Shown here piece by piece: positions 1-12,590 of a DNA stretch of 12,590 nucleotides (positions within the stretch are counted from its first letter, which is position 1; the number at the start of each line of letters is the position of its first letter). Source of the DNA: an uncultured Variovorax sp. (lineage in GTDB: Bacteria; Pseudomonadota; Gammaproteobacteria; Burkholderiales; Burkholderiaceae); assembly GCA_946478645.1 (NCBI GenBank), contig CAMLCW010000130.1, positions 1 to 12,590 of the forward strand, in the 5' to 3' direction. Both the position numbers and the translations under genes were made by a program. Under the pieces are notes generated by a model. It was not told where the DNA came from. It ran no database searches and saw only the letters and a program-made list of their open reading frames with translations.

Positions 1-794
1 CCGCGGTGCAGCGTGCTGCGGTTGTCCCACATCACCAGGTCGCCGACGCGCCATTCGTGGCTGTAGACGCGCTCGCGCTGCGTTGCATGCTCGAGCAGGT
101 CGAGCAGGTAGATGCGGCCTTCCGCGATGGGCCAGCCGACGATCTCGCGCGCATGCACGCCCACGAACAGCAGCTTGCGGCCCGAGCCCGGGTGCGTTTC
201 CACCAGCGGCCAGACGGCCGGCGGGATCGCCTTCTTCTGCGCGTCGGTGTAGGCGTCGTCGCCGAGCAGCAGCCGCGTGTGCAGCGCATAGTGCTCGGCG
301 CGCAGGTCCGCGATCTCATGCCTGGTGCGCTCGGGCAGCGTGTCGTAGGCCGCGCGCAGGTCGGCAAATTCCGTGGTGCCGCCCCAGCTCGGCAGCACCA
401 CCGCCTGCAGCATGGAGTAGGCCGCGCGCGGGTTCTGGAACGAGCTGTCGCTGTGCCAAAGCTGGTTGGCAAAGTTCGACAGGTTCTTCGGCGAATCGCG
501 GCGCGCCACGTTGCCTTCGGCGTCGACGTTGGAGATGTCGATCAGCCGCTCGTCCTCGAGCCGCTCGGGCCGGCGGAACACTTTCTTGAGCCCGATGTCG
601 AGCGGGCCGAAGGACTTCGCGAAGTCGAGCTGCTGCTGGCCCGAGAGCGGGCAGTCGCGCCAGACCAGCACGGCGTATTGGTCCATCGCGGCGCGGATGT
701 CGTCGATGTCGGACTGGCCGAGCGGGCGGCCGATGTCGATGCCGCTGGCCTCGGCCGCAAAGACCGGGTGAAGGGGCTTGAGTTGCAATGTCAT
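1..794 (-). CDS. TfdA-family Fe(II)/2-oxoglutarate-dependent dioxygenase (3' end cut by window edge)
   Basis: 264 codons are visible from the ATG at 794-792; the stop lies outside the window. The protein begins MTLQLKPLHPVFAAEASGID, typical of the TfdA/TauD family. The iron-binding HxD motif is in NFANQLWHSDSS (His114, Asp116). The distal histidine is in GDLVMWDNRSTLHR (His263), two codons from the edge, so only about 20-25 C-terminal residues including the 2-oxoglutarate-binding arginine should be missing. The segments GGTTEFADLR, RAEHYAL, GSGRKLLF and LLEHATQRE closely match what I recall of Cupriavidus TfdA (2,4-D dioxygenase), more than TauD. Such enzymes hydroxylate an aryloxy- or alkanoate-type substrate with decarboxylation of 2-oxoglutarate in the cytoplasm. 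The true substrate cannot be read from sequence. It lies 37 bp after the Bug receptor gene, probably in the same transcript. No clear Shine-Dalgarno precedes the ATG, and the in-frame upstream stretch offers no better start. Confidence 0.9.
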   Translation of the reverse strand, partial: MTLQLKPLHPVFAAEASGIDIGRPLGQSDIDDIRAAMDQYAVLVWRDCPLSGQQQLDFAKSFGPLDIGLKKVFRRPERLEDERLIDISNVDAEGNVARRDSPKNLSNFANQLWHSDSSFQNPRAAYSMLQAVVLPSWGGTTEFADLRAAYDTLPERTRHEIADLRAEHYALHTRLLLGDDAYTDAQKKAIPPAVWPLVETHPGSGRKLLFVGVHAREIVGWPIAEGRIYLLDLLEHATQRERVYSHEWRVGDLVMWDNRSTLHR

Positions 795-831: not shown

Positions 832-1818
832 CTATTCGGCCTGGATGCCCGCGTCGGCGATGGTCTTGGCCCAGCGCTTCATCTCGGCCTGCACGAAGGC
901 ATCGAACTGCGCCGAGGTCGAGGCGACCACCGTCATGCCCTGTTCCTCGATGCGCTTGCGCATGTCGGGCGCGTTGAGCACGCGGGCGATGTCCTGCTGC
1001 ATCTTCTGCACGGCCGCCGCGGGCGTGGCGCGCGGCGCCACGAAGCCGAGCAGCGCATTGACGTGGAAGCCCGGCAGCGTCTCGGCGACGGTCGGGTAGT
1101 CGAAGCCCGGCACGCGCCGCTCGCCGAGCGTGGCGATCATCTTCATGCGCCCGGCCTTCACGAAAGGCAGCACCGACAGCAGCGGATCGAACACCAGGTC
1201 GATGCGCCCGCCCATCAGCTCGGTGTGCGCCGGCGCGCTGCCCTTGAACGGCGCATGCAGCATGTCGAAGCCGGCCTCGCGCTTGAGCAGCTCGGCGCCA
1301 AGGTGCGTGGTGCTGCCCGCGCCCGGCGTGCCGTAGGTCAGCTTGCCGGGATTCTTCTTCGCGTAGGCGATCAGTTCGCGCACGTTGTTGAACGGCGTGT
1401 CGGGCCGCGCGACGATCGCGAGCTCGAGATTGGCGATCTGCGTGATGCCCGCGAGGTCCTTCACCGTGTCGTACGGCAGGCTCCGGCGCAGCGACGGATT
1501 GACCGCGAAAGAGGAATTCACCATGCCGATGGTCAGCCCGTCGGGCGCCGACTTGGCGACGAAATCGGCCCCGATCGCGGTGCCGGCCCCGGGCTTGTAG
1601 TCGATGATCACCGGCTGGCCCCAGATCTCCTGCAGCTTCTGGCCGATCAGCCGGCCCACCGTGTCGGTCGGCCCGCCGGGCGCGAACGGGATGATGATCT
1701 TGACCGGGCCGGCCGGGAAGTCGCGGGCCATGGCGCACAGCGGAGCGGCGAGCCCCGCGAGCGCCAGGCCGGTGGAAAGCAGCAGTTGCCGCCGGGTCGG
1801 CGGGTGCATCGTGTGCAT
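832..1818 (-). CDS. Bug/TctC-family tripartite tricarboxylate transporter substrate-binding protein
   Basis: A 328-residue periplasmic solute receptor of the Bug family (very numerous in Burkholderiales), which normally binds carboxylates for TctAB-type uptake or for sensing. Residues 1-31 form an export signal with an n-region TRRQLLLSTG (Tat-like RR at 9-10), a hydrophobic core and cleavage near AMA/RDFP. The family block KIIIPFAPGGPTDTVGRLIG (40-59) carries the Bug ligand-binding loop, followed by WGQPVIIDYKPGAGT (66-80), APDGLTIGM and YGTPGAGSTTHLGAELLK. Length is normal for the family. The ATG at 1818-1816 has an AAGAGAG ribosome site (plus-strand 1825-1831); an in-frame ATG three codons later is possible. 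No TctA/TctB membrane genes are in the window. Pairing with a downstream TfdA-type oxygenase and a divergent IclR regulator suggests it captures the oxygenase substrate or a related acid (inference). Confidence 0.95.
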   Translation of the reverse strand: MHTMHPPTRRQLLLSTGLALAGLAAPLCAMARDFPAGPVKIIIPFAPGGPTDTVGRLIGQKLQEIWGQPVIIDYKPGAGTAIGADFVAKSAPDGLTIGMVNSSFAVNPSLRRSLPYDTVKDLAGITQIANLELAIVARPDTPFNNVRELIAYAKKNPGKLTYGTPGAGSTTHLGAELLKREAGFDMLHAPFKGSAPAHTELMGGRIDLVFDPLLSVLPFVKAGRMKMIATLGERRVPGFDYPTVAETLPGFHVNALLGFVAPRATPAAAVQKMQQDIARVLNAPDMRKRIEEQGMTVVASTSAQFDAFVQAEMKRWAKTIADAGIQAE

Positions 1819-1909: not shown

Positions 1910-2716
1910 ATGAATGAACGACTGGAATCCAGCGGCGGCGGCGGCGCCGAGGTGGCGGCGCTGGCGCGCGGGCTGGCGCTGCTGCGCGTGGTGGGCGATG
2001 CCGCGGGGCCGCTGAGCAACCGCGAACTGGCCGACGCGACCGGCATCCCGAAGGCCACCGTCTCGCGACTGACGGCGACGCTGGTCTCGGCCGGCTACCT
2101 GCGCCAGGCGGCCGACACCGAGCGCTTCGCCCTCGGGCCCGCGCTGCTCGACCTGAGCAACCGCTACCTGCGCCATTTCGACCTGCGCGCGGCGGTGCGC
2201 CCGCACCTCGTCGCGTTGTCGGAGTTCGCGGGCGCCAGCGTGCACATGGGCGTGCGCGACGACCTCGACATCCTCATCATCGATTCGCTGCGGCCGCGCA
2301 CCGCGCTGATCACCTCGCGCATCGAGATCGGCTCGCGCATGACGATCGCGACCTCGGCCTCCGGGCGGGCCTACCTGGCGAGCCTTGAGCCGCCCGAGCG
2401 CGAGGCCATGCTCCAGCGCATCCGCCTGGCCAGCGGCGAGGGCTGGGCCGCGCTCGCGCCACGCCTCGCCGCGGGGCTCGAGGAGCACGCGCGCCTGGGC
2501 TACTGCAGTTCGTTCGGCGAATGGAATCCGCACATCCACGCGCTCGGCTTCGCGGTGCGCGGGCCGCAGGGCGAGCGCTTCGCCTTCAGCTGCGGCGGGC
2601 CGGCCTACCTGCTGCCGCGCGACATGATGATCGCCAAGGTGGCGCCGCGGCTGCTCGAGACGGTGGCGCGCATCCGGGAGGAGATCGGGGCGGGGGCGGC
2701 TGCGGATTCTCAGTGA
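1910..2716 (+). CDS. IclR-family transcriptional regulator
   Basis: A 268-residue cytoplasmic DNA-binding regulator of normal IclR length. The winged helix-turn-helix spans about residues 14-85; the recognition part is LSNRELADATGIPKATVSRL (35-54), with the wing near LRQAADTERFALG. The effector domain covers about 90-262. It includes VHMGVRDDLDILIIDS, SRMTIATSASGRAYLA and GYCSSFGEWNPHIHALGFAV, the last being the equivalent of the conserved GEW...A..PV block near the ligand pocket. It is transcribed divergently from the Bug-dioxygenase genes with a 91-bp gap that contains two dyads, so it probably controls both directions. The start ATG at 1910 has only a weak ribosome site, and no longer in-frame start exists because a TGA lies just upstream. 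The effector is unknown and is probably related to the dioxygenase pathway. Confidence 0.95.
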   Translation: MNERLESSGGGGAEVAALARGLALLRVVGDAAGPLSNRELADATGIPKATVSRLTATLVSAGYLRQAADTERFALGPALLDLSNRYLRHFDLRAAVRPHLVALSEFAGASVHMGVRDDLDILIIDSLRPRTALITSRIEIGSRMTIATSASGRAYLASLEPPEREAMLQRIRLASGEGWAALAPRLAAGLEEHARLGYCSSFGEWNPHIHALGFAVRGPQGERFAFSCGGPAYLLPRDMMIAKVAPRLLETVARIREEIGAGAAADSQ

Positions 2717-3015: not shown

Positions 3016-3035
3016 CCGTCACATGCCGGTGACAG
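3016..3035. promoter_or_regulatory. Palindrome / Pho-box-like site upstream of the STN-sigma operon
   Basis: GTCAC-ATGCCG-GTGAC (3018-3033) is a perfect 5-bp dyad. Read on the minus strand the same bases give CTGTCAC-CGGC-ATGTGAC, two heptamers 11 bp apart, matching the PhoB direct repeat CTGTCAY at 7/7 and 5/7 positions. The plus strand gives a poorer version. It ends 30 bp before the chosen start codon. It could be a dyad operator, a PhoB site or chance. Confidence 0.25.
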
Positions 3036-3065
3036 CATGCAAATTTCCCGAATGGCGCGCGCTCC

Positions 3066-3806
3066 TTGCCGACCCGATTTCCTTTCCTGCCGCTCTGCGG
3101 GCTGGTGCTGTGCCGCGCGGCCGCATCGGCCTGCGCGGCTGAGGCGTCCGCCACGGACCCACTGCCGCCGCCCGCAGCCGAACGGGCGCCGGACGATGCC
3201 GCCATCGCCTTCGACCTGCCGGCGCTGCCGCTGGCCGATGCGCTCAAGCGCTATGCCGCGCTGACGCGGCAGCCCGCGCTCTTTCGCAGCGAGATCCTGG
3301 CGGGGCGCACTTCTTCTGCGGTGCGTGGCCGCTACGCGCCCGATGCCGCGCTGCGCCTGCTGCTCGAAGGCACGGGCCTGGTCGCGGAGCAGGTGCGCAC
3401 GGGGTCGGGCCCCACGCTGGCCCTGAAGCCTGCAGAACCGGCCGCCGCGCCGCCGCCGCGCGCCGCGAGCCTGGGCAGCCTCGCGGGCTATCCGGGCCTG
3501 GTGCAGGCGCGCGTGTGGCAGGCCTTGTGCGATGACCCGCGCACCCGCCCGGGCGCCTACCGCTCGCTGCTGCGCTTCGAGGTCGATGCCACTGGCCGGC
3601 TGCAGCGGCCGCGGCTGCTCGGCTCCAGCGGCGATGCCGCGCGGGACGCGGCCATGCTGCGCGCGCTCGAGGCGGTGCGCCTGGCTGAGGCGCCGCCGCC
3701 GGGCATGCCCCAGCCCCTGACCCTGCTGGTGCGCCCGACGCCACCGGGCGGCGCCCCCGAGTGCCGCGACGCTGCGGATTCCCCTGCGGAATCCCCCGCC
3801 GATTGA
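3066..3806 (+). CDS. Barrel-less cell-surface signalling receptor: STN domain plus TonB C-terminal-like domain (VreA-like)
   Basis: 246 residues. An N-terminal hydrophobic stretch (about 5-25, ending SACAAEA) looks like a signal peptide, so the protein should be periplasmic. Residues 47-121 form an STN (secretin/TonB short N-terminal) domain: IAFDLPALPLADALKRYAAL, then a VRGRYAPDAALRLLLEGTGL block. This fold is the signalling domain of FecA-type receptors. An Ala/Pro linker (122-140) leads to a TonB-C-like domain (about 142-223) with LLRFEVDATGRLQ, LLGSSGD and a following helix. There is no TonB-dependent beta-barrel, which matches VreA of the P. aeruginosa PUMA3 system. The gene ends 4 bp before the sigma factor gene. 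The start is uncertain: the frame is closed by a TGA at 3030 and has no ATG or GTG before the TTG at 3066, and no good ribosome site is visible. A GTG at 3105 would destroy the signal peptide. Confidence 0.8.
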   Translation: MPTRFPFLPLCGLVLCRAAASACAAEASATDPLPPPAAERAPDDAAIAFDLPALPLADALKRYAALTRQPALFRSEILAGRTSSAVRGRYAPDAALRLLLEGTGLVAEQVRTGSGPTLALKPAEPAAAPPPRAASLGSLAGYPGLVQARVWQALCDDPRTRPGAYRSLLRFEVDATGRLQRPRLLGSSGDAARDAAMLRALEAVRLAEAPPPGMPQPLTLLVRPTPPGGAPECRDAADSPAESPAD

Positions 3807-3810
3807 CGCC

Positions 3811-4329
3811 ATGGCCGAAGACGCACGCCCCCTGCTGATGGACTACCTGTCGCGTCACTACGACGCGCTCAAGCGCCAACTCGGGCGGGCGCTGCGCAAT
3901 GCCGATCTGGCGGAGGACGCGCTGCACGACACCTGGCTGCGCGTGAACGATCAGGGCGGCAGCGCCGACGGGCCGATCCAGCGCCCGGGCGGCTACCTCG
4001 TGCGGATGGCCTTCAATATCGCGCTCGACATCCAGCGCCGCCAGAGCCGCAACCTGCCGCTCGATGAGATCGACGCCTTGCTGGAGCTCGCCGACACCGC
4101 GCCCGGCCCGGACCGCATCGCCGAGGCGCGTTCGCAGCTCGACGCGGTCGCGAGGCTGCTCGACCGCATGCCCGCGCGGCGGCGCGAGGTGGTCGTGCTG
4201 GTGCACATGGAAGGGCTCACGCAGCCCGAGGTGGCGCGGCGCCTCGGCGTTTCGCTGCGCACCGTCGAATACGAACTCAAGCATGCGCACGACCACCTGA
4301 GCGCGAGGATCGACCATGGCGAAAAATGA
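3811..4329 (+). CDS. FecI-type ECF RNA polymerase sigma factor
   Basis: 172 residues, normal for the FecI-like ECF group. Sigma region 2 covers about residues 8-80, with ADLAEDALHDTWLRV (31-45) and PGGYLVRMAFNIALDIQRRQ (59-78), the part that melts and reads the -10 element. Sigma region 4 covers about 112-166: PARRREVVVLVHMEGLTQPE followed by the helix-turn-helix VARRLGVSLRTVEYELKHAH, which reads the -35. It starts 4 bp after the STN gene stop, so the two are co-transcribed and probably translationally coupled. The FecR-type regulator follows after 96 bp rather than overlapping. Likely target promoters are the two copies of TTGCGGG-N9-GCCCGTTCGTCG before fecR and the exoprotein gene (inference). 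No such motif precedes its own operon, so it seems not to be autoregulated. Confidence 0.95.
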   Translation: MAEDARPLLMDYLSRHYDALKRQLGRALRNADLAEDALHDTWLRVNDQGGSADGPIQRPGGYLVRMAFNIALDIQRRQSRNLPLDEIDALLELADTAPGPDRIAEARSQLDAVARLLDRMPARRREVVVLVHMEGLTQPEVARRLGVSLRTVEYELKHAHDHLSARIDHGEK

Positions 4330-4357
4330 TTGCGGGGTCCGGCCGGCCCGTTCGTCG
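4330..4357 (+). promoter_or_regulatory. Predicted ECF sigma promoter of the FecR-type gene
   Basis: TTGCGGG (4330-4336), 9 bp, then GCCCGTTCGTCG (4346-4357). If TGCGGG is the -35 and CGTC (4353-4356) the -10, the spacer is 16 bp, normal for ECF sigma factors, whose -10 elements often contain CGTC. It begins at the base after the sigma gene's stop and is repeated with exact spacing before the exoprotein gene. Transcription would start near 4363, giving a leader of about 60 bases. Confidence 0.65.
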
Positions 4358-4425
4358 TATGGGGTGAAGCACCGCATCGCCCCGCGCCGCAGCACGGACC
4401 GAGCCCCCCTTGAAAGGCAGCGGCC

Positions 4426-5451
4426 GTGACGCATGACGCCATGACTCCGTCGAACGACCGCGCCTTGCCGGCCGACGACGACACCCGTCGCCAGGCCTGG
4501 GAATGGCTGCGCCTGTTCCATTCGGGCGCGGTCAAGCCGCAGGACGCCGAGCGCTTCAAGCGGTGGGTGGCGCGCAGCCACCTCCATGCGGCGGCCCTGC
4601 GCGAAGCGAAGGCGCAATGGGCTGCGCTCGGCCCGGCCGCCGCCGAGCTGCTGCGCACCAATGCCGAAGCAGCGGCCTTCCATGCACGCCACCGGCCGCG
4701 GCCGGCGCTGCCCCGCCGTGCCTTCCTCGGCGCGGCCGCGGGCGCGGCGGCCATGGCCGGCGTGGCGGGCGTGGCCGTGTTCCGCCCGCCCGCAGGGCTG
4801 TGGCCCGTACCGGGCGAGTGGGGCGCCGACTACCGCACCGCCACCGGCGAGCAGCTGGTGGTGGACCTGAGCGAGCGGGTGCAGGTCACCCTCAACACCC
4901 AGACCCGCATCCGGCGTCGCACGGCCGACGGCCACACGACCAGCGTCGAACTGCTCGCGGGCGAGGCCGCTTTCGACCTGCCGTCCCGCGGCCGCGGCGA
5001 GCAAGCCTTCGGCGTCGTCGCGGGCGCCGGGCGCAGCTTGGCCGCGGCGGGGCGCTTCGAGGTCCGCTACCTGCACGACAAGGTCTGCGTCACCTGCATC
5101 GAGGGCGCGGTCCGCGTGGAGCACCCCGCCGGCACGCGCGAGCTCGGCGCGCGCCAGCAGACGGTGTACGACGCCAGGTCGGTGAGCGGCGTGGCGCTGG
5201 TGGGCGGCGCGAACCTTGCGGCTTGGCGCAAGGGCGCGCTGGTGTTCACCGAGACGCGCCTGTCCGACGTGCTCGACGAGATCAACCGCTATCGACCCGG
5301 CCGCGTGCTGTTGATGAACACCGCGGCGCGCGACCGGCCCGTCACGGGCAGCTTCTACATCGCGTCGCTCGACCTCGCGCTGGCGCAGCTGCAGCACGCC
5401 TTCGATCTGCAGGCCCGTTCGCTGCCGGGCGGGGTGGTCGTGCTGAGCTGA
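4426..5451 (+). CDS. FecR-type anti-sigma / sigma regulator, inner-membrane
   Basis: 341 residues. Residues 20-66 form the cytoplasmic N-terminal FecR (DUF4880-type) domain that holds the sigma factor: RRQAWEWLRLFHSGAVKPQD and RFKRWVARSHLHAAAL. A single membrane segment follows (about 98-119), preceded by a twin arginine in PRRAFLGAAAG. The periplasmic FecR domain spans about 130-255 (YRTATGEQLVVDLSERVQV, LLAGEAAFDL, VTCIEGAVRV). The classic AWRKGALVFTETRLSDVLDEINRY block (266-289) opens a C-terminal STN-like domain that should meet the STN protein encoded at 3066-3806. The start is GTG at 4426, with AAAGG 8 bp upstream; ATG at 4441 is an in-frame alternative. It has its own predicted ECF promoter. 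In this family the protein is cleaved on signalling and its N-terminal part activates or frees the sigma factor. Confidence 0.95.
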   Translation: MTHDAMTPSNDRALPADDDTRRQAWEWLRLFHSGAVKPQDAERFKRWVARSHLHAAALREAKAQWAALGPAAAELLRTNAEAAAFHARHRPRPALPRRAFLGAAAGAAAMAGVAGVAVFRPPAGLWPVPGEWGADYRTATGEQLVVDLSERVQVTLNTQTRIRRRTADGHTTSVELLAGEAAFDLPSRGRGEQAFGVVAGAGRSLAAAGRFEVRYLHDKVCVTCIEGAVRVEHPAGTRELGARQQTVYDARSVSGVALVGGANLAAWRKGALVFTETRLSDVLDEINRYRPGRVLLMNTAARDRPVTGSFYIASLDLALAQLQHAFDLQARSLPGGVVVLS

Positions 5452-5479
5452 ACAAAAAGGAAGTCGCGGGAGAAATAGT

Positions 5480-5507
5480 TTGCGGGAGATGGGGTGCCCG
5501 TTCGTCG
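5480..5507 (+). promoter_or_regulatory. Predicted ECF sigma promoter of the exoprotein gene
   Basis: TTGCGGG (5480-5486), 9 bp, GCCCGTTCGTCG (5496-5507): same sequence and spacing as at 4330-4357, while the 9 bp between differ, as expected of a conserved protein-contact pattern. Transcription would start near 5513, about 30 bases before the ATG at 5544. The octamer GCGGGAGA occurs both 16 bp upstream (5466-5473) and overlapping the -35 (5482-5489). Confidence 0.65.
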
Positions 5508-5543
5508 ATGTGCATCGACTCAACTTTCCGGCGGAAACGACCC

Positions 5544-8500
5544 ATGAGCACACGCGGACCCCAGGGCGCAGCAACGACACCGATCCACGCGGCGCCTGCG
5601 TCGCACAGCCCGTGCGGCCGGCGCTTCCGCATGGCGCCGGTGGCCCGCGCCATCGCCATCGCGCTGCTTGCCAACGGTGCGCTCGCCGATGCCCAGGCGC
5701 AGCGGGCATTCAGCGGCGCGTGGTTCGCCAGCAAGAATGCGGCGCAGAGCACCGCAACGGCCACGGGCCGTTTGCCCAACGGCATGCCGGCATCGATGCT
5801 GACCGACCCGCAGGCGCAGCGCAAAGCCGACGAGCAGCTGCAGCGCTCCATGGGCAACCTGAACCTCGCCGCGCGTTCCATTGCCGCGCAGCAGGCCGCG
5901 CAGTCCGCCGCGCGCGACGCCGCATCGAACACCGGCTCGGACATTCCCGACGGCCTGGCCGAGGGCGGCCTGAAGGTCGACACGAACAGCCTCACCGCCG
6001 GCTGGCTCAACGCCCGCGCACCGGTGCAGACGGTGGCCGGTGGCCGCACCGTGGTCGGCATCGAGCAGACCGACGAGAAGGCGATCCTGAACTGGGAGCG
6101 CTTCAACGTCGGCCAGAACACCACCGTGAGCTTCGACCAGAAGGGCGGCGCCAAGCCCGACGGCACCAACGCGTGGATCGCGCTGAACCGCATCAACGAC
6201 CCGAGCGGCAAGCCGAGCCGGATCGCGGGCCAGATCGAGGCCGACGGTGCGGTGTACCTGGTCAACCGCAATGGCATCGTGTTCGGCGGCGGCAGCCAGG
6301 TGAACACGCGCACGCTGGTGGCCTCCAGCCTCGCGTTGTCGGACAAGCAGTTCAACCTGGGCATCAACAACCCGCAGGTGCTTGCCAACCAGGGCAACGA
6401 CTTCCCCATTCCGCAGTTCGGCGAATTCACCGCCCTGCGGCCCGAGATCTATGGCGACTCGGGCTTCAAGCCCGGCAGCGGCGGCACGCCCGACCGCATG
6501 GGCGGCGTGGACCGCTTCGATCCCGGCGCCGCGCCGGGCGGGGTCACGGTCGAAGCCGGCGCGCGCCTCGCGGCGGCCTCGGGCGGCAAGGTCATGCTGT
6601 TCGCGCCGAAGGTGCGCAATGCGGGGCACATCGCCGCACCCGACGGCCAGGTCATCCTGGCGGCCGGGGAGAACATCTTCTTGAAGACCGCTTCCACGCA
6701 GGACCCGAACGCGCCGCGCGGCCTCGACGTGGCCGCCTCGGCGGTGCCCGGCTGGGCCTTCACCGGCGGGCAGGTCCTGGGCGCACTGGGGCTGGCGCAG
6801 GTCTATTCCGACGCGCACTTCGTCGACGGCCTGCGCGACGTGGTGCTGCCCGAGATGGCCGCACGCGCCAGGTCGGTCGGCTACGAGGTCGTCAACAGCG
6901 GCACGGTGCAGGCCGACCGCGGCAACATCACGCTGCAGGCGCAGGACGTGCGGCAGTCGGGCGTGCTGGTCTCGACCAGCGCGCTGAACAACCGCAACGG
7001 CTCGATCCTGCTGCGCGCCTGGGGCCTGGGCTCCCACATGTACGCGGACGGCGTGAACGATCTGATCAACTGGTCGGCCGGCACGCTGACGCTCGGCGAA
7101 GGCAGCATCGCGCAGGTGATGCCCGACGCCTCCGACACCAGCGAGATCGAGGCCTCCGCGCTCGCCACGCGCTACCAGCCCGGCCGCGTGAGCCTGTTCG
7201 GGCAGCTGATCGACGTGCAGGCCAACGCCGGCGTGCTGGTGCCGGCGGGAACGATCAAGGCCGAATCGGCAGTCAACCCCATCTTCACGCTGCTCCCGTA
7301 TCTCAAGCCGGGCAGCCGCGGGGACGCGAGCCGCATCTACCTGGACAGCGACGCCTTCCTGAGCGTGGCCGGCCTGCAGGACATGCGCGTGGACATGGCG
7401 CGCAACTTCATCGAGGCCGAGCTGCGCATCAACGAACTGCGCGATTCGCCGCTGCTGCTCGATTCATGGCTGCGCGGCAAGAAGGTGGTGGTCGATCGGC
7501 GCAGGGCCGGCGTGTTCCGCGACGGCCCGATGGCGGGCGTGCAATGGGTGCTCGGCCCCGACGGCACGACCTACATTCCCGGCGCCTGGACCGGCACGCC
7601 GCTGGCCGACGTGACGGGCTGGGTCGGCGTGGGCAAGACCGACCTGCGCGAGCTGTCGGCCGACGCGGGCAGCATCGAGCTGCGCGCGGGCGGCGCGGTG
7701 ATCACGCGCGCGGGATCGATGCTCGACGTGTCGGGCGGATCGGTGCGCTACACCGACGGCATGAACACCGCGACCAAGCTCATGGGCGCCGACGGCCGCG
7801 TGCACACGATGGACCGGGCCATGCCCGAGACCGACTACACCGGCATCGCGGGCGAGTTCACGAACGCGCATGCGCGCTGGGGCGTGAAGAACACCTGGCG
7901 CACGCCGCTCATCGGCGCCAACCACAAGGAGGCCGGCTACACCGAAGGGCGCAAGGCCGGCAGCGTGAATATCCTCGCGGGCGACGCGATGGTGCTCGAG
8001 GGCGACATGCTCGGCGGCGTGGTGGTGGGCGACCGCCAGGCGCAGAAACCGGCCGCCAACCAGGGCGGCCGGCTCGAGCTGGGCGAGAACACGCCCGATG
8101 GCCGGCCGTGGTCGCCGGGCACCATCATCGTCACGCACGACCCGAAGCGCCTCGGGCCCGGCTTCGACGCGAAGGCGACGCTCGGCGAAGACTTCTACAT
8201 GCCGCTCGCGCCCGACGAGCAGAAGTCGCCCAAGCTGACCTTCCTGTCGGACCGCATGCTCAGCGACTCGGGCATGGGCACGATCGTGCTCAACAACATC
8301 AACGGCGACTTCGAACTGGCCGAGGGTTCCGCGCTCGACCTGTCGCCGGGCGCATCGCTCTTCGTGGCCGGCACCGAGGGCTCGACGAACGACATCCGCA
8401 TCCACGGGCCGATCCGCGCCGCCGGCGGGCGGATCTCGCTCACTTCGGTCAACGGCACGCTCGAGGTGGGCGAGCACGGCCGGCTCGATGCGAGCGGCCA

Positions 8501-11500
8501 GTGGATCAACGCCTGGAAAGACGGCGCGCCGCGCGGCGCCTGGGCGGTGGACGGCGGCGCGATCGTGCTGAACGTCGGGGAGATCTCGGCCCACCGCGAC
8601 GCCGTGTTCGACGTCTCGGGCGGCGGGCGCGCCGACCTCGGCAAGAAGGGCCTGCCCTCGCTGCGCGTCGGCGATGCGGGTTCGATCGCGCTGACCGGCG
8701 TGACGCCCGAGCTCGACCTGGGTGCGCTGAACCTGCGGGCCCATGCGGCCGGCGCGGCGGGCAGCCTGTCGCTCGAGACCGCGTCGGCGGTGCAGATCGG
8801 CGGCGCATTGACCGCCGCGCCGCCAGGCCCAGCCTCGGATGACGATGCCGCCGCCGCCGTCACCCTGCTGCCGGCCACGCTCTTCGGCGAGCGTGGCTTC
8901 GGACGGGTGAGCATCGCCGTGCGCGGCGATGGCCACGGCATCGAAGTGCCCGAAGACGTCGCGGTCTCGCAGCAGGCCACGAACATCGACCTGAGCGGCT
9001 TCGCCTGGCGCGACCTGCCGAGCGGCCGCACGCTGGCCGACGCGGCGCCGCTCGGCGTGCTGCGGCCCGAAGAGCGCGCGGCGCGCACACCCGCGTCGCT
9101 GTCGCTCGGCACCGAGAACGGCCCGATCCGGGTGGCGCGCGGCGCGACGGTGCGCACCGACACCGGCGGTACGCTGGCGCTGGAGGCCGGTGGCGAGCTG
9201 GGTGCGTTGAGCGTCGCCGGCCGGCTCGACGCACCGGCCGGGCGCATCGTGCTGTCGGGCACGAATCTCACGCTGGCGGCCGGCGGCGAACTGCTGGCGC
9301 GCGGCGCGGCGCTGATCCATGCCGACAGCACCGGCCGCCGCGTGGGCGAGGTGCGCGACGGCGGCACGGTGGAGATCCGGGCGGGCGAGCTCACGCTCGA
9401 GAAGGACGCGCTGATCGACGTCTCGGGCGCGACCGGCACCATCGACGGCGTGCCCGACACGGGCACCAGCGGCACGCGGCTTCCGCGCAGCGTGCCGTCG
9501 ATCACGCTCGACAGCAACGGCGGCCTGATCCAGATCACCGGCAAGGGCCTGGTCGAAAGCACGATGCGCGGCGCGGCGGGCGGTCCCGGCGGTGTCGGCG
9601 GCCGCATCCGCGTGAACATGATGGCGACGTCGCACGCGAACGGCTCGCCGCTGGAGCAGCTGGAGCGCTCGCTGCCGGACCCGGACTGCTACGGCTTCTT
9701 CGTCGACGGCGCCTGCAGCGACTGGAAGCAGGGCCTGGACTTCGACTGGGCGCCCGGCCTGCGCGACTGGGGCTACGACATCGCCGGCCCGATGGTGCTG
9801 CCGTCCGCGCTGCTCGCGCACTTGGCGGACCGCAAGGAACTGGTGCTGTCCGACCGCCTGACTGCGCCCGGCGTGCCCGGCCCGCTCGACCCCGCGGCGT
9901 TCGGCCTCTCGCCCCAGACGCTGGACAACTTCCGCGACACGCTGCTCGGGGGCGACCTGCTACGCGACGTGCTCCAGCAGCCGGGCCAGCAGTTCGCGCT
10001 CACGCTGCGTCCGCAGGCGTTCAGGGACGGCGGCTTTGCCGACCTCGCGCTGGTGAGTGCCGCGCAGGGCGCCATCCGCCTGGACAACGCGCACCTCGCG
10101 CTGGGCCGTTCGATCTCGCTGCAGGGCCCGATCGTCGGTCATGCGGCCTCGTCGTCCTCGCTGCGCGCGCCGCACATCCTGCTGGCGACCACGCCCGATG
10201 CCGCAGCCGTGCCCGCGCCGCAAGCCCCCGGCGCGACGGGCCAGCTGAGCGTGACCGGTGCGCTGATCGACATCGCCTCGCCCGCCGATGCGGACCAATT
10301 CCAGTCGGGCACGGTCCGCATCACCGGCTTCGGCCGCACGGTGCTCGAGGCCGGCGAGATCCGCCTGGGCGGCGCGCTGCCCGCGCAGTTCGGCCAGGAG
10401 ACCCGGCTGCAGGTCAACCTCGACGTGGACGGCCAGCTGCAGCTCCACGCGGGCCAGATTTACCCGGCGACCGCCATGACCGGCATCATCCGCGCCGGCG
10501 ATTCGATCGGCGTCGAGCGCCTCGGCGATGCGGGCGGCGCGCCGCTCTCGGCCGGCGGCAGCCTGCGCCTCGAAGCGCCGGTGATCGCGCAGAACGGCGT
10601 GCTGCGCGCGCCCTTCGGCCAGATCGAGCTGGCGGCGGGCGAGCGCCTCGCGCTGGGTGCGGGCAGCCTCACCTCGGTGTCAGGCGCCGGCCTGGCCGTG
10701 CCCTACGGCACGCTGTCCAACAACGAGCATTGGCACGATCCGTCCCAGCCCGTGGACCCGGCGAATCCGGCGAGCGGCTCGCTGGTGGCGCCGCCCGAGA
10801 AGCGCATCACGCTGAAGTCGCCCGATGTCGCGCTCGCGCCGGGCGCGGTGGTGGACATTGCGGGCGGCGGCGAGCTGCATGCCTCGGAGTTCGTGCCCGG
10901 CCCCGGCGGCTCGCACGACGTGCTGAACGTGCCCGGCATGTACGCGATCCTGCCGGGGCAGGCGGGCGCGGCGCCGGCCGGTGGCGCACCGGCCGGCCAG
11001 CGCGTGTGGCTGGCGGGCGGCCCGGGCCTGGCGGCGGGCTGGTACGACCTGCTGCCCGCGCGCTTCGCGCTGCTGCCCGGCGCCTTCGCGGTGCAGGCCA
11101 CGGGCAAGGCATGGGGCGGCGCCGCCGCGCCCGCCACGCGCGCGCCGGACGGCAGCCTGGTCATGCAGGGCCGCGCCGGCAATACCTTCGGCGGCAACCA
11201 GGACGCGCAGGCCACGGCCTGGCGCGTGATGCCCGGCGGCACGCTGCGCCGCTACACCGAATACAACGAGGCCACGGCCAACGACTTCTTCTCGTCCGAG
11301 GCCTTCAAGCTCACGCAATACCGCCTGACGGGCCAGGACGTGGTCACGCCGCGGCTGCCGCGCGACGGCGGCGCCGTCGTGTTCGACGCGGGCCGCAGCC
11401 TCGTGCTCGCCGGCACGCTGCGCTCGGCGCCCGATGCGGGCGGGCGCGGCGGGCTGGTGGACATCGCAGGCAAGAAGATCGCGATCGTCGGCCGCGGCCA

Positions 11501-12590
11501 GGACGGCGCGAGCCTGCAGGCCGACGGCTACCTCGTCATCGATTCGGCGAGCCTGTCGAACTTCGGCGCCGGCAGCCTGCTGGTGGGCGGCAAGCGCCAG
11601 GGCAATGCGCTCGGCCTCGAACTGGACGTGACCGCGACCGACATCGTGGTGCGCAACGACGAGGGCTCCGAACTGTTCGGCCCCGAAGTCATCCTGGCCG
11701 CCAGCGAGCAGGTCGCCATCGACGCCGGCAGCCGCGTCAGCGCGCGCGGCCGCGGCACCGGCGGCGCGGGCAGCCTGGTCGTCAAGCCGCAGGTGGCCGC
11801 GGTCTATACCGACCCCGACGGCCAGCCGGACGACAACTTCGACGGCGTGATCGACGCCAAGGACGCCGCCGACGACGTGCTCACCGCGCCGGCGCGCGAC
11901 TGGGGCGCGCTGGTGCGCGTGGCGACCGGCGACGCGGTCAAGGTCGTCCGCGAGGGCGTGGACACTTCGCGCGGCGGCCTCGTCACCCTCGGCGCGGGCG
12001 CGGTGGTCGACGGCGGCAACGCCTTGCTGATCGACGCCACGCGCACCACCGAGCTGGCCGCTTCGGCGCAGGTCGCGGGGGCCGACTTGTCGGTGGCGGC
12101 GGGCCGCATCGGCTTTGGCGGTGGCACCGAGGGCATGGTGCTCGACAGCGGCGCGCTCGCGCAGCTGTCGCGCTCGACGCGGCTGACGCTGCGCAGCTAC
12201 TCGGACTTCGACTTCTACGGCTCGCTCGACCTGGGCGCGGCCGGCCTGAAAGCGCTGACGCTCGACGGCGCCGCATTCGTCGGCCGCGGCGCGGGCGACG
12301 TGGTGATCCGGGGCGAGGGCATCGCGCTCGCCAACAGCGGTGGCGGTGCCACGGCCGGGGGCGGCACCGGCGCGGGCGGCTTCACATTGGACGCGGCCAC
12401 GCTGGTGCTGGGCGCGGGACAGAAGACCTTCTCGGGCTTCGGCAGCGTGACGCTCACGGGCCGCGAAGGCATCGTCGGCGAAGGGGCGGGCGGCATCGAC
12501 GCGGGCGCCGCGCCGCTCACGCTGAACACGCCGCTGCTCACCGGCCGGGGCGGCGCAGTGCAGGCCATTGCCACCGGCGGCGCGCTGCGG
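5544..12590 (+). CDS. Filamentous-haemagglutinin-like TpsA exoprotein, PdtA-like (3' end beyond window)
   Basis: 2349 codons open to the window edge with no stop. The start ATG at 5544 lies about 30 bases after the predicted promoter and has GGAAA upstream. An earlier in-frame ATG (5508) would overlap the promoter, and Met30 (5631) is a fallback. The n-region is long (about 30 residues), then a hydrophobic core (APVARAIAIALLANGALA) and likely cleavage at AQA/QRA. Residues about 140-420 form the TPS secretion domain with ILNWERFNVGQNTTVSF (181-197) and LVNRNGIVFGGGSQVNTRTL (239-258), NRNGI replacing the usual NPNGI. The rest is beta-helix-like, Gly/Ala/Asp-rich, with recurring DVSGG-type turns. 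Only two cysteines (1382, 1391) follow the signal peptide. A dockerin-like calcium loop lies at 2096-2107 and RGD at 592 and 1127. Predicted role: secreted by a TpsB partner and displayed or released as an adhesin or haemagglutinin. Its place after an STN-sigma-FecR set resembles pdtA of PUMA3. Confidence 0.9.
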   Translation, partial: MSTRGPQGAATTPIHAAPASHSPCGRRFRMAPVARAIAIALLANGALADAQAQRAFSGAWFASKNAAQSTATATGRLPNGMPASMLTDPQAQRKADEQLQRSMGNLNLAARSIAAQQAAQSAARDAASNTGSDIPDGLAEGGLKVDTNSLTAGWLNARAPVQTVAGGRTVVGIEQTDEKAILNWERFNVGQNTTVSFDQKGGAKPDGTNAWIALNRINDPSGKPSRIAGQIEADGAVYLVNRNGIVFGGGSQVNTRTLVASSLALSDKQFNLGINNPQVLANQGNDFPIPQFGEFTALRPEIYGDSGFKPGSGGTPDRMGGVDRFDPGAAPGGVTVEAGARLAAASGGKVMLFAPKVRNAGHIAAPDGQVILAAGENIFLKTASTQDPNAPRGLDVAASAVPGWAFTGGQVLGALGLAQVYSDAHFVDGLRDVVLPEMAARARSVGYEVVNSGTVQADRGNITLQAQDVRQSGVLVSTSALNNRNGSILLRAWGLGSHMYADGVNDLINWSAGTLTLGEGSIAQVMPDASDTSEIEASALATRYQPGRVSLFGQLIDVQANAGVLVPAGTIKAESAVNPIFTLLPYLKPGSRGDASRIYLDSDAFLSVAGLQDMRVDMARNFIEAELRINELRDSPLLLDSWLRGKKVVVDRRRAGVFRDGPMAGVQWVLGPDGTTYIPGAWTGTPLADVTGWVGVGKTDLRELSADAGSIELRAGGAVITRAGSMLDVSGGSVRYTDGMNTATKLMGADGRVHTMDRAMPETDYTGIAGEFTNAHARWGVKNTWRTPLIGANHKEAGYTEGRKAGSVNILAGDAMVLEGDMLGGVVVGDRQAQKPAANQGGRLELGENTPDGRPWSPGTIIVTHDPKRLGPGFDAKATLGEDFYMPLAPDEQKSPKLTFLSDRMLSDSGMGTIVLNNINGDFELAEGSALDLSPGASLFVAGTEGSTNDIRIHGPIRAAGGRISLTSVNGTLEVGEHGRLDASGQWINAWKDGAPRGAWAVDGGAIVLNVGEISAHRDAVFDVSGGGRADLGKKGLPSLRVGDAGSIALTGVTPELDLGALNLRAHAAGAAGSLSLETASAVQIGGALTAAPPGPASDDDAAAAVTLLPATLFGERGFGRVSIAVRGDGHGIEVPEDVAVSQQATNIDLSGFAWRDLPSGRTLADAAPLGVLRPEERAARTPASLSLGTENGPIRVARGATVRTDTGGTLALEAGGELGALSVAGRLDAPAGRIVLSGTNLTLAAGGELLARGAALIHADSTGRRVGEVRDGGTVEIRAGELTLEKDALIDVSGATGTIDGVPDTGTSGTRLPRSVPSITLDSNGGLIQITGKGLVESTMRGAAGGPGGVGGRIRVNMMATSHANGSPLEQLERSLPDPDCYGFFVDGACSDWKQGLDFDWAPGLRDWGYDIAGPMVLPSALLAHLADRKELVLSDRLTAPGVPGPLDPAAFGLSPQTLDNFRDTLLGGDLLRDVLQQPGQQFALTLRPQAFRDGGFADLALVSAAQGAIRLDNAHLALGRSISLQGPIVGHAASSSSLRAPHILLATTPDAAAVPAPQAPGATGQLSVTGALIDIASPADADQFQSGTVRITGFGRTVLEAGEIRLGGALPAQFGQETRLQVNLDVDGQLQLHAGQIYPATAMTGIIRAGDSIGVERLGDAGGAPLSAGGSLRLEAPVIAQNGVLRAPFGQIELAAGERLALGAGSLTSVSGAGLAVPYGTLSNNEHWHDPSQPVDPANPASGSLVAPPEKRITLKSPDVALAPGAVVDIAGGGELHASEFVPGPGGSHDVLNVPGMYAILPGQAGAAPAGGAPAGQRVWLAGGPGLAAGWYDLLPARFALLPGAFAVQATGKAWGGAAAPATRAPDGSLVMQGRAGNTFGGNQDAQATAWRVMPGGTLRRYTEYNEATANDFFSSEAFKLTQYRLTGQDVVTPRLPRDGGAVVFDAGRSLVLAGTLRSAPDAGGRGGLVDIAGKKIAIVGRGQDGASLQADGYLVIDSASLSNFGAGSLLVGGKRQGNALGLELDVTATDIVVRNDEGSELFGPEVILAASEQVAIDAGSRVSARGRGTGGAGSLVVKPQVAAVYTDPDGQPDDNFDGVIDAKDAADDVLTAPARDWGALVRVATGDAVKVVREGVDTSRGGLVTLGAGAVVDGGNALLIDATRTTELAASAQVAGADLSVAAGRIGFGGGTEGMVLDSGALAQLSRSTRLTLRSYSDFDFYGSLDLGAAGLKALTLDGAAFVGRGAGDVVIRGEGIALANSGGGATAGGGTGAGGFTLDAATLVLGAGQKTFSGFGSVTLTGREGIVGEGAGGIDAGAAPLTLNTPLLTGRGGAVQAIATGGALR

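Follow-up and report, generated by a model that had tools for sequence, protein, structure and literature searches.

In Pseudomonas aeruginosa, the PUMA3 system combines a receptor with STN and TonB/TolA-type domains and no barrel (VreA), an extracytoplasmic function (ECF) sigma factor (VreI) and a FecR-type regulator (VreR), encoded in the order A-I-R; it acts on a two-partner-secretion (TPS) exoprotein, and PhoB drives vreAIR (PMC4971064; publications are cited here and below for those passages of them that were available). We analyzed a stretch of 12,590 nucleotides from an uncultured Variovorax species (contig CAMLCW010000130.1, assembly GCA_946478645.1), hereafter called the window, in which the genes for a sensor with STN and TonB_C domains, an ECF sigma factor, a FecR protein, and a TpsA exoprotein lie consecutively on the forward strand. 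We read this set as a cell-surface signalling cassette of the PUMA3/Vre type whose output is the expression of a single giant TPS protein, a reading to which we give a probability of about 0.77.

The linkage of such cassettes to tpsA is not new, because the available text of Llamas 2009 (PMC2729926) describes the arrangement, repeated clusters included. It places PUMA3 clusters linked to tpsA in Janthinobacterium, R. palustris, and B. vietnamiensis and, for the homologues of Janthinobacterium and Rhodopseudomonas palustris, gives a cluster occurring four times: tpsA follows three of the copies, and tpsB with exbBD and PA0696 follows the fourth. The promoters, the relations between copies, and the kinship of sensor and TonB are absent from the available part of that account; new here are the pairs of promoters and the way they covary, the swapping of modules, and the sensor-TonB kinship.

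The window shares with PUMA3 of P. aeruginosa the receptor type, the gene order, and the TPS target, and its pho-box-like repeats may serve as a similar input. However, tpsA directly follows fecR here, up to 11 sensor genes are found per genome, and a predicted sigma-dependent promoter precedes fecR, whereas published accounts treat vreAIR as a single operon under PhoB. The pdtA/phdA promoters of P. aeruginosa also carry pho boxes, whereas only 2/83 of the gaps before tpsA have the repeat here. Fec/Fox/Pup signalling has the STN domain, the FecI-type sigma factor, and a FecR with a PupR-like periplasmic part in common with this locus, but the locus has no TonB-dependent receptor and its target is an exoprotein, not a receptor. 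With FhaB/FhaC-type secretion it shares the TPS domain, the very large exoprotein and, in a full-length relative, a C-terminal DUF3739, while tpsB does not lie beside tpsA and a shared exporter operon adds ExbB (with DUF2341 and LamG), ExbD, TonB, and a porin. The cassette of the window comprises the following features.

3018-3033, forward strand: direct repeat GTCAC-N6-GTGAC resembling a pho box, before the sensor gene; putative PhoB site
3048-3053, forward strand: putative -10-like hexamer CCGAAT after the repeats, placed by the alignment of 12 upstream regions
3066-3806, forward strand: VreA-like sensor with signal peptide, STN domain, TonB/TolA-type C-terminal domain, and no barrel; TTG start
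3811-4329, forward strand: ECF (FecI-type) sigma factor, VreI-like, by domain match
4320-4359, forward strand: predicted sigma-dependent fecR promoter, 29.4 bits, with TTGCGG-N13-CGTTCGTC at 4330-4356, overlapping the sigma stop codon
4426-5451, forward strand: FecR-type transmembrane anti-sigma factor/regulator, VreR-like, by domain and structure match
5470-5509, forward strand: predicted sigma-dependent tpsA promoter, 28.1 bits, with TTGCGG-N13-CGTTCGTC at 5480-5506
5512-5543, forward strand: conserved 5′ leader abutting the start codon of tpsA, TCAACTTTC-N-GGC-N-GGAA
5544-12590, forward strand: TpsA exoprotein of the filamentous-haemagglutinin type, TPS domain at about 6015-6356, 3′ end beyond the window

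The sensor matches STN (PF07660, E 1.1e-7) and TonB_2 (PF13103, E 1.4e-6). Its structure model (mean predicted local distance difference test score 81.9, predicted template modelling score 0.48) has two lobes and no barrel; in structure matches of the model, the N-terminal lobe resembles the PupB/FpvA signalling domain (6ovk_B, E 2.2e-6) and the C-terminal lobe the C-terminal domains of TolA/TonB (2x9a_B, E 2e-3). The sigma factor carries Sigma70_r4_2 (E 7.8e-14), and the regulator, with FecR (E 2.7e-13) and DUF4880 (E 6.9e-7) domains, matches PupR (6ovk_R, E 2.8e-10), the partner of PupB in a solved complex. TpsA, recognized by its TPS domain (PF05860, E 3.8e-22; TIGR01901, E 5.9e-21), is cut by the window edge after 2,349 visible residues; linked relatives on long contigs mostly reach 3,700-4,650 residues, and a full-length one of 3,825 residues (L169) ends in DUF3739. 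No barrel receptor gene lies within the window. The nearest relatives of the sensor are Variovorax proteins (67-68% identity), and the sigma factor is 85-88% identical to those of three Variovorax loci. Domain matches and coordinates thus agree with an earlier note on this DNA, which had seen these four genes in a row on one strand with no receptor. Its view of a barrel-less, betaproteobacterial PUMA3/Vre relative wired to TPS is also borne out, as architecture and fold fit the available description of VreA (PMC2729926), the nearest relatives belong to Variovorax, and the order is kept. The assignment of the four-gene set to the PUMA3/Vre type is supported, the likeness to VreA, VreI, and VreR being one to published names and features, that is, to descriptions.

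To follow the cassette beyond the window, 90 loci were compiled: the window, 25 loci from species genomes, 61 from sampled genomes, and 3 from plasmids. The sensor gene is accompanied by the sigma gene in 89 of them, by fecR in 88, and by tpsA in 83; the order whose conservation across Burkholderiales the earlier note had asked about is therefore complete in 83/90 loci, and 3 of the 7 loci without tpsA lie at contig ends. The species-genome loci (24 Burkholderiales and 1 Steroidobacter) all have sigma and FecR genes after the sensor gene, and tpsA follows in 24, the contig ending in the 25th. A profile search of 19 genomes, chosen because they already held a cassette locus, gave 83 sensor genes of nearly full length, each genome contributing 1 to 11, once partial matches to barrel receptors or TonBs and short contig-end fragments (e.g., G017:C287, G018:C201, G017:C71, and G010:C141) had been dropped; in 72/83 cases, a TPS domain is encoded on the same strand no more than 6 kb further downstream. 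In a limited first look at a class-wide sample of 274 genomes, only the centre genome matched.

The sigma-fecR and fecR-tpsA gaps have in common a bipartite site consisting of an A-tract, a TTGCGG-like element, about 13 bases, and a CNTTCGTC-like element. Both window sites fit TTGCGG-N13-CGTTCGTC with zero mismatches; the search tolerated two mismatches, a level at which 12/200 shuffles gave at least two matches. Only two places in the window exceed 9 bits on either strand, namely, the fecR and tpsA sites (the first site shifted by one base scores 9.3). A promoter model trained on the tpsA gaps gave 47/82 fecR gaps a score exceeding that of all 1640 shuffles, and its counterpart trained on the fecR gaps did so for 48/83 tpsA gaps relative to 1660 shuffles. 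Of the 90 regions preceding the sensor gene, 0 and 3 passed the 99.5% level with the two models, and the site does not precede the sensor gene of the window. A scan of 18 exporter loci for a promoter before tpsB found a 16-bit site just before TpsB in L092 only, the other matches above 9 bits lying elsewhere, some of them in neighbouring cassettes.

Both promoters exceed 9 bits in 58 cassettes, 51 of which belong to 16 genomes with two or more. Within these genomes, the two promoters of a cassette resemble each other more than those of sister cassettes in the -35 columns (0.684 vs 0.504) and the -10 columns (0.685 vs 0.566), while spacer similarity is 0.408 vs 0.417. The observed own-pair value was reached by 0/3000 permutations for the -35, 0/3000 for the -10, and 1096/3000 for the spacer columns (z of 5.8, 5.4, and 0.4, respectively). 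Requiring more than 20 bits of both sites (24 cassettes) gave corresponding counts of 0, 0, and 132 of 2000, and requiring more than 25 bits (20 cassettes) gave 11, 2, and 102 of 2000. The distance between tpsA promoters tracks that between sigma factors (r 0.60 for -35 and 0.55 for -10) and shows a partial r of about 0 with TpsA distance once the sigma factor is accounted for. Since the own-pair excess is found in the -35 and -10 elements and not in the spacer, the cassettes look like insulated circuits; a non-exhaustive literature search found no earlier report of such promoter-pair covariation for TPS-linked sigma factors. The dedicated one-target regulon proposed in the earlier note gains support: the window has two sigma-type promoters, and promoter pairs covary per cassette, but the TpsB operon must be expressed too.

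In the genomes studied, tpsB does not adjoin these tpsA genes. We took 18 loci centred on TpsB genes that had no other kind of tpsA beside them, and 17 of them encode TpsB-ExbB-ExbD, 16 of these together with TonB and Porin_5 (one contig ends), while the 18th is another TPS system. The 17 operons come from 17/19 genomes, and no exporter operon was located in the other two (G010 and G017). In P. aeruginosa, the phdA-pdtB-exbB2-exbD2-tonB4-PA0696 unit has the same gene set (PMC4971064, PMC7035377), and PA0696 is called a putative porin (PMC7035377). The earlier note had suggested looking beyond 12590 for a TpsB gene and exbB/exbD; none is present beside tpsA up to 12590, and relatives have a separate TpsB-ExbB-ExbD-TonB-porin operon instead, a single such operon seeming to serve several cassettes. 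The ExbB of the Steroidobacter exporter operon (L088:10583-12397) carries DUF2341 and a LamG-type, lectin-like domain. Nothing convincing as a TonB box was seen in the N-terminal parts of 15 TpsB proteins aligned by eye.

A profile of the sensor C-terminal domain scored 30.3-49.2 bits on 16 exporter-operon TonBs, compared to at most 22.7 bits on 20 other TonB_2 loci from six genomes. With the reciprocal profile, 36/38 sensors exceeded the best other TonB (20.5 bits), the window sensor reaching 33.5 bits and P0005 and P0119 falling below. These scores point to a recent common origin of the sensor C-terminal domain and the exporter-operon TonB, from which a shared binding partner would be the obvious inference. 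A further, tentative step, which we regard as possible but not probable, is that the sensor is a TonB look-alike that took its C-terminal domain from the exporter-operon TonB, meets the same outer-membrane partner, and senses the state of the adhesin exporter, not an outside ligand; several sensors, each with a private sigma factor and promoter pair, would then choose which giant adhesin uses one shared gate. The sensors have invariant residues in both domains, including two cysteines that are absent from the exporter-operon TonBs. Two sensor genes of G008 (G008:C43:12179-12868 and G008:C26:8918-9517) contain an in-frame TGA and are perhaps decaying copies.

The putative input side is marked by the direct repeat. 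GTNAC-N6-GTNAC occurs upstream of the sensor gene in 23/90 loci, compared to a mean of 0.2 and a maximum of 1 in 20 rounds of shuffling, and in 0/86 fecR gaps, the two tpsA gaps mentioned above, and no coding controls. The pattern was derived from a 12-locus alignment, and 7 of the 23 matches are among those 12 loci while 16 are not. The 18-position pho-box consensus of E. coli was reached at 14/18 or better by 17/90 loci vs 6/900 shuffles. The hexamer after the repeats reads CATAAT, CAAAAT, or CAGAAT at the equivalent place in relatives.

Regulators and exoproteins have different histories. Across 83 cassettes, the distances of sensor, sigma factor, and FecR correlate at 0.85-0.87, but those of the regulators correlate with the TpsA N-terminal part at only 0.21-0.28. 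In Pandoraea, two cassettes (L131 and L139) have TpsA N-terminal parts that are 97% identical and regulators that are 36% identical. The weak correlation and the Pandoraea pair show that regulator sets and adhesins have been swapped between cassettes. As the L131 and L139 exoproteins drop to 28-47% identity after about 750 residues, the passenger region changes faster than the secretion end of TpsA. Homogenization of the TPS domains of one genome by the shared exporter was considered but found no support, the regulator-corrected identity of TpsA N-terminal parts being 0.034 within a genome vs 0.038 within a genus. The leader before the tpsA start codon begins with GCATCGACTCAACTTTC and is conserved across several genera; TCAACTTTC-N-GGC-N-GGAA with up to three substitutions stands directly before the ATG in 10/83 loci.

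As we picture its working, the sensor and sigma genes would be read from the promoter with pho-box-like repeats, and the conserved sites there suggest that phosphate limitation arms the system. FecR would span the inner membrane and restrain the sigma factor, its periplasmic end being bound by the STN domain of the sensor by analogy with PupB-PupR and FoxA-FoxR; in Fox signalling, the signalling domain shields the anti-sigma factor from proteolysis (PMC11637429). The TonB-type domain of the sensor may contact an outer-membrane or exporter partner, and a change there would free FecR for proteolysis and release the sigma factor. The latter would drive two promoters, as their sequences indicate, that of fecR as a feedback brake and that of tpsA, and TpsA would be exported through the TpsB-ExbB-ExbD-TonB-porin operon encoded elsewhere, as seen in relatives only. 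In genomes with several cassettes, each sigma factor would recognize its own promoter pair, so that each exoprotein would have its own switch.

Three other readings were weighed. If the paralogues cross-talked, all sigma factors of a genome would read the same promoters as one joint regulon and the likeness within a cassette would be a residue of duplication. One consensus is indeed common to all promoters, and the own pair is the best match in only 32/51 cassettes, but recent copying would not yield an excess confined to the -35 and -10 columns and absent from the spacer between them, and promoter distances track sigma distances; we therefore hold cross-talk to be quite unlikely. The sensor might also be a dispensable relic, with FecR itself, or PhoB alone, setting the response. 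Compared with its three closest relatives (L001-L003), the window sensor gene has lost some 110 bp at its 5′ end, leaving TTG 3066, near the presumed transcription start, to serve as the start codon, and deletion of vreA had no effect in P. aeruginosa under the conditions tested. On the other hand, the sensor is kept with sigma factor and FecR, coevolves with both (r 0.85 each, 83 cassettes), and retains its invariant residues in both domains, the two cysteines included, so that a relic appears unlikely. The most improbable of the three, in our view, is a Fec-type siderophore or haem system whose receptor gene has moved away, the sensor being a mere helper and the exoprotein aiding iron capture as HxuA does for haem. 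STN, FecI-type sigma factor, and FecR are Fec parts, some TpsA proteins serve iron capture (PMC5422565), and the Methylosinus plasmid copy described below has a TonB-dependent receptor directly upstream. A neighbouring receptor, which the earlier note had named as the case against its proposal, is thus found there, but none lies near the Burkholderiales cassettes among the matches listed: the nearest of 59 STN-type receptors is 19 kb away, and of 294 receptor matches in nine genomes, the listed ones that share a contig with a cassette lie at least 28 kb from it. Moreover, the putative input is pho-box-like and not iron-type, and VreI of P. aeruginosa does not promote iron functions (PMC7035377). 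That the exoprotein is an adhesin, and not for iron, is nonetheless something we infer.

Several observations weigh against the PUMA3/Vre-type cassette as we read it. The pho-box-like site of the window reaches 12/18 by the E. coli consensus, a level often reached by shuffles. About 20-24 loci per gap, mostly divergent cassettes, have no promoter above control, and a strict genome-wide promoter pattern gave 30 matches in 20 genomes vs 20 for the reversed control, only 4/30 lying in cassettes; outside cassettes, the site would then be near chance level, which gives a weak hint of a narrow regulon. When the most stringent threshold is applied (20 cassettes), spacer similarity leans to own pairs too. 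The cassettes are patchy, being found in 11/61 genus-sample genomes, 5 of those seeds. Finally, after deletion of vreA in P. aeruginosa, the regulon is still active in low phosphate and virulence is unchanged (PMC4971064, PMC7035377), so the sensor may be dispensable.

Three genes lie left of the cassette in the window.

3-794, reverse strand: TauD-type dioxygenase fragment
832-1818, reverse strand: TctC/Bug-type binding protein
1910-2716, forward strand: IclR-type regulator

Within 10 kb upstream of the sensor gene, a TctC-type gene was found in only two of 25 relatives (L001 and L022), and a TauD or IclR gene in 0/25 at E 1e-4. As these neighbours are not kept in relatives, we place the three genes outside the cassette unit.

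Some cassettes outside the usual pattern were also recorded. In Bordetella ansorpii (L129), the place of tpsA after the sensor, sigma, and FecR genes is taken by genes for type II secretion (G, K, L, D, E, and F) and for two PBP-type binding proteins, much as hxc follows vreAIR in P. aeruginosa. L128 and L130 have fecR without tpsA after it, near the exporter operon, and L159 has the sensor gene alone. Klebsiella pneumoniae plasmid pMagicconchshell_02 (IncFIB/IncHI1B; L105:13956-17421) carries sensor, sigma, and FecR genes and then an unlisted TPS-like match, the nearest named relatives of its sensor being Serratia proteins. On the alphaproteobacterial plasmid pOB3b1 of Methylosinus trichosporium (L106:11245-29408), the sensor gene is immediately preceded by a TonB-dependent receptor gene and followed by two exoprotein genes.

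In the available text of PMC7035377, the function of VreA is called unknown and exbB2-exbD2-tonB4 uncharacterized; the sensor-TonB kinship suggests a concrete candidate role for a VreA-type sensor. Genomes with several paralogous cassettes and matched promoter pairs offer a natural example of insulated sigma circuits, and the swapping of regulator sets from one adhesin to another illustrates how bacteria rewire the expression of surface proteins.

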